DNA of 64,000 nucleotides from Robertkochia solimangrovi. GTDB taxonomy: Bacteria; Bacteroidota; Bacteroidia; Flavobacteriales; Flavobacteriaceae. Shown here one piece after another: positions 6,542 to 17,203 of the stretch. The position numbers and the translations under genes were made by a program. Below the pieces are notes generated by a model that was given only the letters and a program-made list of their open reading frames with translations, ran no database searches and had not been told where the DNA came from. The stretch spans positions 1 to 64,000 of the forward strand of contig NZ_QKWN01000012.1 in the NCBI RefSeq assembly GCF_007279655.1, in the 5' to 3' direction. Positions within the stretch are counted from its first letter, which is position 1; the number at the start of each line of letters is the position of its first letter.

Positions 6542-6615
6542 GCCGATGTAGCTCAGCTGGCTAGAGCAGCTGATTTGTAATCAGCAGGTCGTGGGTTCGA
6601 GTCCCTCTATCGGCT
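6542..6615 (+). tRNA. tRNA-Thr (anticodon UGU)
   Basis: 74 bases fold as a cloverleaf. The acceptor stem GCCGATG/TATCGGC has one G-U pair. The D arm is GCTC...GAGC, the anticodon stem GCTGA/TCAGC with loop TTTGTAA (anticodon TGT, reading ACA), and the T arm GTGGG-TTCGAGT-CCCTC has one U-U mismatch. The discriminator is T and CCA is not encoded. Confidence 0.96.
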
Positions 6616-14813: not shown

Positions 14814-14842
14814 TTTGAATAATTACTATGGTTGTACTTTTG
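14814..14842 (+). promoter_or_regulatory. Promoter of the 14865 membrane protein gene
   Basis: TTTG at 14814-14817, 17-base spacer, TACTTTTG at 14835-14842. This is a good Bacteroidota pair, in the divergent region with the AraC gene. Confidence 0.65.
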
Positions 14843-14864
14843 TGCCGCTGAAAATCAAAGGATT

Positions 14865-15266
14865 ATGAAGATAGGTGACATAAGGTATATCGGAGTGGTT
14901 AAGGCGGTATTTATTACTGTTTTATTGGCTCATGGTATATTAAACACTATCGGTTTTCAGTCGTATCATGAAACGGTGAAATCATTGCATGGCAATGCCG
15001 AATTCTTTAATGCCGCTTTTTTTTACCACTTGATGTGCTATATTCCCTTTGCTGAGATCATGCTGGCCGTTCTGCTGGCTACAAGAAAAGCTAATCGATG
15101 GATTCTGAGTTTTGGATTCATCTTGTTTTTAATCGCTACTTATTTTTATATCGATACGGAACAAAGCGGTTCCCCCATCCTTTTTTTATCGCTTGCATTC
15201 GTAACGGCTTGGTTCATAAAGAATACTGGTAATTTATATCGTAATAAGATACAACTTACCTACTAG
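14865..15266 (+). CDS. Small four-helix membrane protein (DoxX-like)
   Basis: 133 residues from the ATG at 14865; an in-frame upstream ATG at 14832 overlaps the -7 box and is rejected. Four hydrophobic segments lie near 12-32, 50-67, 75-95 and 103-118. The HGILNTIGF and HLMCYIPFAEI patterns resemble DoxX/MauE-like proteins but are not decisive. It is divergent from an AraC regulator that may control it. Its 3' flank carries the same A/T-rich motif and hairpin seen in the short transcription units downstream. Confidence 0.7.
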   Translation: MKIGDIRYIGVVKAVFITVLLAHGILNTIGFQSYHETVKSLHGNAEFFNAAFFYHLMCYIPFAEIMLAVLLATRKANRWILSFGFILFLIATYFYIDTEQSGSPILFLSLAFVTAWFIKNTGNLYRNKIQLTY

Positions 15267-15322
15267 AAATGGTTGTATTGAATAGCGGTCAGCCCTAAAC
15301 GACTGCTATGTCAACTATTATG

Positions 15323-15374
15323 TTCATTTGATTTTTTAAGTTGTTAGTGAAGGTCGCTTCATTGCGGCCTTCAC
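15323..15374 (+). terminator. Terminator of the 14865 gene with shared 3' motif
   Basis: TTCATTTGATTTTTTAAG followed by TTGTTAG leads directly into the hairpin GTGAAGGTCGC / GCGGCCTTCAC (15347-15357 and 15364-15374, one G-T pair, loop TTCATT). The motif upstream of the hairpin resembles those at 16084 and 16511. Confidence 0.65.
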
Positions 15375-15507
15375 ATTTTGAAAAGAAAGCTTATAAGGTT
15401 CATTGATATTGTAGTAATATTGTAGGAATTATTTGATTATCAATTCGTTGCTATGTTAATTAATGTATAAAGTACATTTAAAACATGGTTTTTTTATGCT
15501 TGAATAA

Positions 15508-15515
15508 TATATTTG
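15508..15515 (+). promoter_or_regulatory. -7 box of short unit 1
   Basis: TATATTTG is an exact consensus match, about 150 bases upstream of a GC-rich terminator, with no credible ORF between. Confidence 0.5.
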
Positions 15516-15697
15516 CCGCCGGAAAACGATATTTGAAATGATGGTCCTTAAAGGATAAATGATATATGCTTGACCTGCACATATAATCGGTTTATCGTCC
15601 CCAAATGATAAATCGGTTATGTAATGCAAACCTAACTTAATCAAATTAAGTTACAATCCCCCCGGCTCCCGTTTCCCAGAAGAAACGGGGCCGTTTA
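15516..15697 (+). ncRNA. Predicted short transcript, unit 1 (candidate sRNA)
   Basis: The unit is bounded by the TATATTTG box at 15508 and a hairpin at 15663-15693 (CGGCtCCCGTTTC / GAAACGGGGCCG, loop CCAGAA). ORFs inside are all under 10 codons. TAATCAAATTAAGTTACAAT just before the hairpin loosely resembles the A/U-rich block of units 2 and 3. The strand and extent are inferred from promoter and terminator signals only. Confidence 0.45.
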
Positions 15698-15892
15698 AGA
15701 ATAAATTTCCAGTTAAGTTTTTTGAAATATTACGATACACCCGAACAAAAGGTGTTTGCTTTAAATTGCATTCATATGAATTTTAAAGTACTGAAATACA
15801 GTAGTTTGGTTTTTTAATCATGTATTGTTATAGAAGTGTGAAATTGACATTTATTAATTGTTTTTTACCTATTATAGCAATAACCGTTACCT

Positions 15893-15900
15893 TACCTTTG
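15893..15900 (+). promoter_or_regulatory. -7 box of short unit 2
   Basis: TACCTTTG is an exact consensus match, ending 13 bases before the ATG of a 54-codon ORF. No well-spaced -33 element is obvious. Confidence 0.5.
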
Positions 15901-15907
15901 TGCTGTT

Positions 15908-16157
15908 ATTTAAATGAAGATGATGATGAAGGAGTTAATTGAAATTTTGGCTGTACAGATTGAATCGACATTGAAGATGTTGTTTGATAGAATGCCAGAG
16001 CCTTCTGTACAATTTATACACTTATCCTACTTTGGGACAAGTAGCGTTCTCAAGCCCAAGACAAGAAGAACCTATTAAGATCTCATATTTGATTATTTAT
16101 ATTTTAAGTTAGTTGGTTAGTTAGTTTAAAGCCATGCATATCGCATGGCTTTTTTTA
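15908..16157 (+). ncRNA. Predicted short transcript, unit 2
   Basis: The unit runs from the TACCTTTG box to a terminator hairpin GCCATGC / GCATGGC (16131-16137, 16143-16149) with a run of T. The block at 16084-16120 contains TTGATTATTTATATTTTAAG then TTAGTTGGTTAG. It is nearly identical to the block at 16513-16547 in unit 3. The unit may be an mRNA for the 54-codon ORF, an sRNA, or both. Confidence 0.5.
15914..16078 (+). CDS. Putative 54-residue peptide, unknown
   Basis: The ORF starts with ATG at 15914 and stops with TAA at 16076-16078. It begins MKMMMKELIEILAVQIES, an amphipathic helix-like segment, and ends with a basic tail KPKTRRTY. The predicted transcription start from the TACCTTTG box lies only about 5-8 bases before the ATG, so the message would be almost leaderless. 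A conserved A/U-rich block and a terminator follow. There is no recognised homology, and the peptide could be spurious within a non-coding RNA. Confidence 0.4.
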   Translation: MKMMMKELIEILAVQIESTLKMLFDRMPEPSVQFIHLSYFGTSSVLKPKTRRTY

Positions 16158-16420
16158 TTGGTAATTATACTATTCAAATAAATTATAAAAATTCTTTGAG
16201 TTATGAATCAAAGGGTATTATACTATAGTAATCAGCTGAGTTTTTTTAGGATATCCATCCTATATGTATTTGTTTTTGAGAAGGATATCTGGACCAAGAT
16301 GTACTTATTGATACCATATTAACAAAGATTTAAGGCTAATACCCCCATAAGCAAGTTAATATATGCATAAAATGAAAAATTAAGCTGATTTTTTACAACT
16401 GCTAAAGTGCTGATTCACCG

Positions 16421-16428
16421 TATCTTTG
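16421..16428 (+). promoter_or_regulatory. -7 box of short unit 3
   Basis: TATCTTTG, exact consensus, identical to the tRNA-Thr -7 box at 6512. Confidence 0.55.
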
Positions 16429-16434
16429 TAGTGT

Positions 16435-16576
16435 TGAATTAGAGAAGGCAGGAGCAAGAAAATTGAAGATGATCCCTTCTCATTTTTCAACAGATTCAAA
16501 CAGGAAGTAATTCATTTTTGATTATTTATATTTAAGTTGGTTGGTTATGTTAAAAGGGCTGTTTCAGCCCTTTTTT
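16435..16576 (+). ncRNA. Predicted short transcript, unit 3 (candidate sRNA)
   Basis: About 140 bases from the TATCTTTG box to a terminator AAGGGCTG / CAGCCCTT (16554-16561, 16565-16572, loop TTT) followed by six T. The longest ATG ORF is 13 codons. TTGATTATTTATATTTAAG followed by TTGGTTGGTTA precedes the hairpin, matching unit 2. An ATTGAAGATG string is also shared with unit 2, consistent with a degenerate duplicate. Confidence 0.55.
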
Positions 16577-16591
16577 CTTTTATAGATTTTT

Positions 16592-17203
16592 TCAGGATTT
16601 GTGATGGATTACCCTGTAGGTGAGGTTTATTCTGGGATTCTTTATTCGTTTTGATTTGGGTAGCTGATGCTTCCAGTTATGTTGTGTGGCTCCTGCCATG
16701 AGTAACAAACTTCCGGGTTCCAGAGCTATCTTAAATGTTTGCTCTTTCTTTGCTCTGTGTTTGAATTGAAAACTCCTGATTTCGCCAAAGCTCAGCGAAG
16801 CAATGACAGGATTCACTCCTAATTCCTTTTCGTCATCGGCATGCCAGCCATTACTATCCATTCCGTCTCTGTAAAGGTTCAGTAAACAGCTGCTGAATCG
16901 GATACCTGTAAATGCAGCTACTTTTTGTGATATCTCATATAAAAGTTCGGTATAGGGGAGGGGTATCATGGTAAGGCCAGAATATGTATAAGGATGATTG
17001 TTTTCGGCATACAATGCTGTTAACCTTGGCTGTGGTATCATCTTTCCGAATAGTCTGATCGAATCCTGTTTCCAGGAAATATCCGATAGTAATGCTCTGA
17101 ATATGGTTGCGGCTTCAGAAAGATTAAAGAAATCCGGAACATAATATATTTCTGCATCCTGCAAAGGAAGAAGGTAATTTTGCAGTTGCTTTTTGGTTTC
17201 CAA
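16592..17203 (-). CDS. alkB: AlkB-like 2-oxoglutarate/Fe(II) dioxygenase
   Basis: 203 residues. Iron ligands are His121 and Asp123 (NGWHADDEKELG) and His179 (WKHQLPK). The 2-oxoglutarate contacts are Arg191 and Arg197 in NPRINLTYR. The AlkB-type nucleic-acid lid segment (PQPRLTALYA) precedes the core. Known members reverse N-alkyl damage in DNA or RNA by oxidative demethylation. The size and motif order resemble the ALKBH2/3-type bacterial proteins. It lies 12 bases after an AraC-type regulator gene and is probably co-transcribed with it. Confidence 0.9.
   Translation of the reverse strand: METKKQLQNYLLPLQDAEIYYVPDFFNLSEAATIFRALLSDISWKQDSIRLFGKMIPQPRLTALYAENNHPYTYSGLTMIPLPYTELLYEISQKVAAFTGIRFSSCLLNLYRDGMDSNGWHADDEKELGVNPVIASLSFGEIRSFQFKHRAKKEQTFKIALEPGSLLLMAGATQHNWKHQLPKSKRIKNPRINLTYRVIHHKS

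Follow-up and report, generated by a model that had tools for sequence, protein, structure and literature searches.

What does the gene-poor region at positions 15267-16590 of the window (the whole 64,000-nucleotide stretch analysed here) encode in Robertkochia solimangrovi, whose genome (G000) comprises 4.4 Mb in 23 contigs? A sequence-only reading had proposed three promoter-terminator units forming a locally duplicated family of sRNAs or micropeptides, and had suggested BLAST against relatives and an Rfam search including Flavo-1 as checks. The region is bounded by a 133-aa membrane-type ORF (14832-15266) and a convergent 2OG-Fe(II) oxygenase gene, referred to here as AlkB-like. The protein encoded at 14865-15266 had no match in a Pfam search, and a DoxX label given to it by eye was dropped on that account. 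As the earlier reading stated, the region contains no long ORF; a 54-aa ORF (15914-16078) lies in unit 2. The features are listed below. R1 denotes a sequence-only model of the shared block built from 30 aligned copies, and its E values for units 0, 2 and 3 are those of copies that were themselves training rows.

15282-15309, forward strand: hairpin of unit 0 with loop AGCCCUAAAC, in the 3′UTR of ORF 14832-15266 (fold z of −5.4 for 15270-15378)
15315-15350, forward strand: divergent copy of the shared pre-terminator block, unit 0 (R1 match, genome E of 0.016)
15347-15374, forward strand: 11-bp terminator-like hairpin of unit 0 with a weak T-tract (folding and terminator test)
15508-15515, forward strand: −7 box TATATTTG of unit 1, an exact TAnnTTTG
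15581-15622, forward strand: 18-bp hairpin of unit 1 with loop CCCCAA (0 of 1000 flank shuffles as good)
about 15664-15693, forward strand: GC-rich hairpin of unit 1 without a U-run, which folds well but is doubtful as a terminator
15861-15868, forward strand: upstream element TTTTTTAC of unit 2, 24 nt before the −7 box
15893-15900, forward strand: −7 box TACCTTTG of unit 2, an exact TAnnTTTG
16021-16075, forward strand: conserved CTTATCCTACTT element and weak CCC-loop hairpin of unit 2 (alignments with copies in relatives)
16076-16121, forward strand: shared pre-terminator block of unit 2 (R1 E of 4.4e-7; pattern search)
16128-16152, forward strand: intrinsic terminator of unit 2 (terminator scan, T-run)
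16389-16396, forward strand: upstream element TTTTTTAC of unit 3, 24 nt before the −7 box
16421-16428, forward strand: −7 box TATCTTTG of unit 3, an exact TAnnTTTG
16432-16492, forward strand: 5′ hairpin of unit 3 (folding)
16506-16547, forward strand: shared pre-terminator block of unit 3 (R1 E of 7.2e-7; pattern search)
16552-16574, forward strand: intrinsic terminator of unit 3 (terminator scan, T-run)
16592-17203, reverse strand: convergent 2OG-Fe(II) oxygenase gene (PF13532, E of 1e-35)

The block that had been noticed in both units 2 and 3 was recovered by a pattern search of the organism's own genome. Allowing up to two mismatches, the pattern TTGATTATTTATATTTNAAG occurred in these two units only across the 4.4 Mb, and the reversed control gave no occurrence. 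The looser form claimed for unit 1 was not found. Instead, the third copy in the window lies at 15315-15350, before the unit 1 box, in the 3′UTR of the upstream gene; the sequence-only reading had missed this copy as well as the wider spread of the block in the family. The hairpins it had claimed for units 2 and 3 are terminator-like with T-runs, but that of unit 1 is followed by TTTAAGAA and was absent from the terminator scan. Fold z values are modest for units 2 (−2.5) and 3 (−1.9). Unit 1 folds over 15560-15695 with a z of −7.2, and its CCCCAA-loop hairpin is preceded by CTTGACCTG at 15569-15577. Unit 1 has a C-rich-loop hairpin of the kind seen in relatives but lacks both the block and a clear terminator; it probably represents a second RNA gene type whose 3′ end is uncertain.

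When the region was compared by BLAST with five Robertkochia genomes (G000 and the relatives G001-G004), the block recurred at further places, upstream of a hairpin in the copies read. R1 gave 42 matches at E < 0.02 in these genomes. Six of them are in G000, namely units 0, 2 and 3, the 3′UTR of clpB (C14:318248), C14:533856 and C11:285214. A terminator lies downstream of 34 of the 42 matches, compared with 169 of 5000 random places. This coupling is partly circular, because 26 of the 42 matches (23 with a terminator) are training copies; among matches outside the training set, 11 of 16 have a terminator. Eight of the 42 lack one by our test, and of 28 weaker R1 matches listed, 12 were examined and four had a terminator. 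In the alignment, the GGTTGGTTAG core is almost identical across genera, and the terminator stem behind the block varies from copy to copy.

The three exact TAnnTTTG boxes are present where the earlier reading had placed them. The box alone, however, carries no weight, because its count in the window is at chance level (55 matches versus a shuffle mean of 57.3). The element TTTTTTAC stands exactly 24 nt before a TAnnTTTG in 8 of the 42 R1 matches (units 2 and 3 and six others), an arrangement seen in 21 of 4000 random stretches. With or without this element, 17 of the 42 have a TAnnTTTG in the 260 nt upstream, versus 11% of random stretches; the remaining 25 have no such box in that interval, and they include unit 0, the copies at clpB and all but one of the six tandem copies. 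The box TATATTTG also occurs upstream of the positional counterparts of unit 1 in G002 and G003. All five Robertkochia genomes have a sigma-54 gene, and one G001 unit is the only one in the clusters with a sigma-54 type element. Behind a UvrA-like gene (labelled by eye; ABC_tran by Pfam), a block copy is accompanied by sigma-54 type elements in three of the four species compared, whereas in G000 it has none. Two block-bearing units (L061 and L065) have a palindrome, ACTATGCATGCATAGT, or its core immediately upstream of the −7 box; it also occurs at a third place without the block (L078) and is a possible operator.

In each of the five Robertkochia genomes, a cluster is flanked by the same two genes, the membrane-type ORF on one side and the AlkB-type gene on the other. 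The locus therefore travels with its neighbours, which bears on the earlier statement that flanking genes do not explain it. The number of units differs between the five species, and the position is the same. In G001 there are six copies in tandem, each about 169 nt long, and others; G002 has several units; G003 has several with three R1 matches besides the 3′UTR copy; and G004 contains, besides its unit 0 copy, a single R1 match and one further unit recognised by eye. The tandem block-bearing units of G001 lie at C1:287750-288611, and the first copy retains the sigma-54-like TTTGGCACGATAGTTGA. The unit 0 copies of all five species have an identical loop, CCCUAAAC, and an identical 13-nt string, UAUGUUCAUUUGA, whereas the stem letters around the loop differ among species. 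Copies outside the cluster have CTTATCCTACTT and a C-rich-loop hairpin in common. Of 13 C-rich-loop hairpin elements tested, eight beat nearly all shuffles (at most 41 of 1000 as good), four failed (108 to 199 of 1000 as good), and the C-loop hairpin of unit 2 was no better than its shuffles (596 of 1000 as good).

Beyond the genus, an exact-pattern scan of named genomes returned 16 stretches. Robertkochia, Galbibacter and Joostella account for 12 of them, and the remaining four look like chance. At E ≤ 0.001, R1 matched 18 of 148 further Flavobacteriaceae genomes (19 of 149 including the organism's own). Two (L140 and L150) of the 18 Flavobacteriaceae loci that were read look like chance. A phylum-wide search matched 7 of 392 genomes, two of which lie outside Flavobacteriaceae and look like chance; this search is a weak negative, because 14 candidates were scored per genome. 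In one genome outside Robertkochia, three R1 matches stand in tandem about 180 nt apart (L216), which means that block-bearing units have multiplied locally outside that genus as well.

The Flavobacteriaceae matches occur in three settings: an intergenic predicted RNA (RNA A), a second RNA preceded by different genes at different loci, and the ends of clpB. RNA A has a sigma-54 type −24/−12 element at the same place in eight of nine aligned loci, and the ninth (L143) has sigma-54 type elements at other distances. In the clpB 3′UTR, the string ATTATTTAGTTTTAAGTTGGTTGGTTAG is almost unchanged in ten records from Robertkochia, Galbibacter and Joostella, in which clpB was identified by its Pfam domains in G000 and by eye in the others. 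This 3′UTR is a candidate source of a 3′UTR-derived sRNA.

At several loci, another predicted RNA, here called B′, is found between RNA A and the AlkB-type gene. B′ is a predicted RNA of roughly 140 nt with a TAnnTTTG-type box (e.g. L144:1715-1890), often convergent on the AlkB-type gene; its RACCCUAAAUCUA string is nearly invariant and its terminator loop UUGAGGGA is invariant. Around this kept loop both sides of the stem change, with double changes in 11 of 21 predicted pairs among 22 sequences. The CCCU and AGGG loops could kiss. The DNA of B′ had matches at E ≤ 0.001 in 72 of 199 genomes, and in 70 of these the E value fell below 1e-11; the two Robertkochia genomes of that sample gave no match. 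Fifty B′ loci were studied, the 30 best matches and 20 more, chosen for B′ and not at random; none is an R1 training row. In a sequence-motif script, the AlkB-type gene was convergent in 31 of the 50 and a block-like string lay upstream in 29. R1 gave 35 matches in 33 of the 50 loci, all on the strand of B′ and at about 120 to 1550 nt from it. A sigma-54 type −24/−12 element (one mismatch allowed, within 160 nt upstream) accompanied 33 of these 35 matches versus 66 of 3000 random stretches, and 29 of the 35 had a terminator. No Rfam family matched B′ above its cut-off in the loci scanned. Membership of unit 1 in B′ was considered and is not supported: up to an E of 10, R3, a covariance model of B′, matched neither unit 1 nor the Robertkochia clusters, and its three weak matches lie elsewhere.

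That units 2 and 3 are predicted members of a local sRNA family is well supported by the recurring block with its terminator, the fixed-distance promoter element and the copies in relatives. We consider it probable that they encode small RNAs belonging to a multicopy family, that unit 0 is a 3′UTR copy, and that all share a common 3′ module, the mechanism, including a bound factor, being the more conjectural part. The sRNA half of the original proposal is thereby upheld on comparative grounds for units 2 and 3 and more weakly for unit 1, and the micropeptide half is not supported. It is highly improbable that the units form a micropeptide family: an ORF does lie inside unit 2, but a Pfam search of its 54 aa gave no match and it overlaps conserved RNA elements. 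The block might also be merely part of an efficient or stable transcript end, serving termination or 3′-end protection, with the units having no trans-acting function. It does stand ahead of terminators in mRNAs such as clpB as well as in apparently stand-alone units. However, it is present at few transcript ends in any one genome (six matches in G000 at E < 0.02), and the GGTTGGTTAG core appears to be kept across genera more than termination should need, and we regard this alternative as quite unlikely.

Alternatively, the block may be a shared antisense seed whose GGUUGGUUAG pairs with ACUAACCAACC-like sites in mRNA leaders. Such sites match in the leader of a G003 sugar transporter gene (ACTAACCAACTAACC; Sugar_tr by Pfam) and in one G002 leader, a 12-nt perfect complement of the unit 2 block precedes the gene at G000:C14:256774, and the analogous FopS is reported to pair with a susC leader (PMC11697453). 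Against this, anti-seed 7- to 9-mers at the starts of 685 predicted genes in the sampled G000 sequence were not clearly commoner than in dinucleotide-shuffled controls: for three versions of the block, 50 to 252 of 300 shuffles were as high, and for 8-mers of unit 2, 43 were observed versus a shuffle mean of 39.5 (102 of 300 as high). An excess seen against letter permutations vanished against the dinucleotide-shuffled control. We judge a seed function unlikely. As a shared seed for mRNA leaders is not supported, a common protein site is the favoured interpretation. The complement of the block (TTAACCAACC-AC) also overlaps and follows the stop codon of RecQ in three species (L034, L035 and L036, near 1500; Pfam for L034), and this gene end is a possible pairing partner.

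If units 2 and 3 are indeed small RNA genes with a common 3′ module, housekeeping-sigma promoters with the upstream element TTTTTTAC would start the RNAs and the terminators would end them. The module would run from an AU-rich stretch through UUAAGUUGGUUGGUUAGU to an intrinsic terminator with a copy-specific stem. The differing 5′ parts may give each RNA its own role, and the 3′ module may serve as a common handle: an RNA-binding factor would bind the GU-rich block, stabilising or delivering the RNAs, which would in turn regulate targets. In a profile search with RRM_1 and Hfq, RRM_1 had no match at E ≤ 0.001 in the five Robertkochia genomes and Hfq passed its cut-off in none of them (weak matches, E of 0.03-0.9), absence by profile not being proof. 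As the search covered these two families only, the bound factor is a guess.

Computation showed here that the block recurs, that it is coupled to terminators, that the promoter spacing is fixed, and that elsewhere in Flavobacteriaceae the block is present on a predicted RNA with a sigma-54 type promoter. More tentatively, the block is possibly recognised by a global RNA-binding factor that would be the Flavobacteriaceae counterpart of Hfq and RbpB and would link the sigma-54-type sRNA, the clpB 3′UTR and the lineage-expanded sRNA cluster in one post-transcriptional network. A 3′ module common to a predicted sigma-54-type sRNA, 3′UTRs such as that of clpB and a locally expanded sRNA cluster offers a concrete bait for a missing RNA-binding protein in Flavobacteriaceae without known chaperones, and a marker for sRNA annotation in this family. 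The companion RNA B′ (70 of 199 sampled genomes) is a further candidate for study.

The block module matches no catalogued RNA family in Rfam. In an Rfam 15 scan of the window, only a tRNA (6542-6615) exceeded the cut-off; no family, Flavo-1 included, passed its gathering cut-off in the region under study. Eight Robertkochia loci gave 17 matches, all sub-threshold, and 16 further loci gave only tRNAs above cut-off. Among the sub-threshold matches, L20_leader appeared at unit 3 (25 of 58.7 bits, E of 0.5) and also at copies of unit 0, whereas PyrR appeared at three clpB ends. Searches of the open-licence literature for the block letters returned no paper, and for shorter strings the papers listed were unrelated by title; searches on flavobacterial sRNAs or sigma-54 gave no description of the module in the titles and abstract openings of the matches listed.

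The closest described system is FopS of Bacteroides. FopS and GibS (Rfam RF04319) are paralogous sRNAs reported to be bound by the RRM protein RbpB (PMC11697453). Like FopS, the present units are predicted multicopy Bacteroidota RNAs in which an intrinsic terminator follows a conserved unpaired stretch, several copies of this arrangement occur per genome, and by eye the order UUCAU..AUUU..GGUU..AAAAG in the Rfam consensus is similar. Membership in RF04319 was nevertheless rejected, both in an Rfam scan of one 301-base stretch and in a search of the five genomes, none of which passed the gathering cut-off of 56 bits (best 28.1 bits). The best match had an E of 0.05 per genome, and by eye no listed place overlaps a block copy. 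Unlike FopS, the present family lacks an RRM_1 match as partner at the threshold given above, and the family-wide form of its block is linked to a sigma-54 type promoter. Within the same bacterial family, 85 new RNAs were reported in Flavobacterium psychrophilum, where Rfp36 and clpB are both listed under a sigma-54 motif (PMC9723704). In contrast to that clpB, the G000 clpB has no sigma-54 element in the 300 nt upstream. By description, units 2 and 3 resemble the Rfp sRNAs reported there, such as Rfp18 and the sigma-54-linked Rfp36, in being predicted independent small RNAs.
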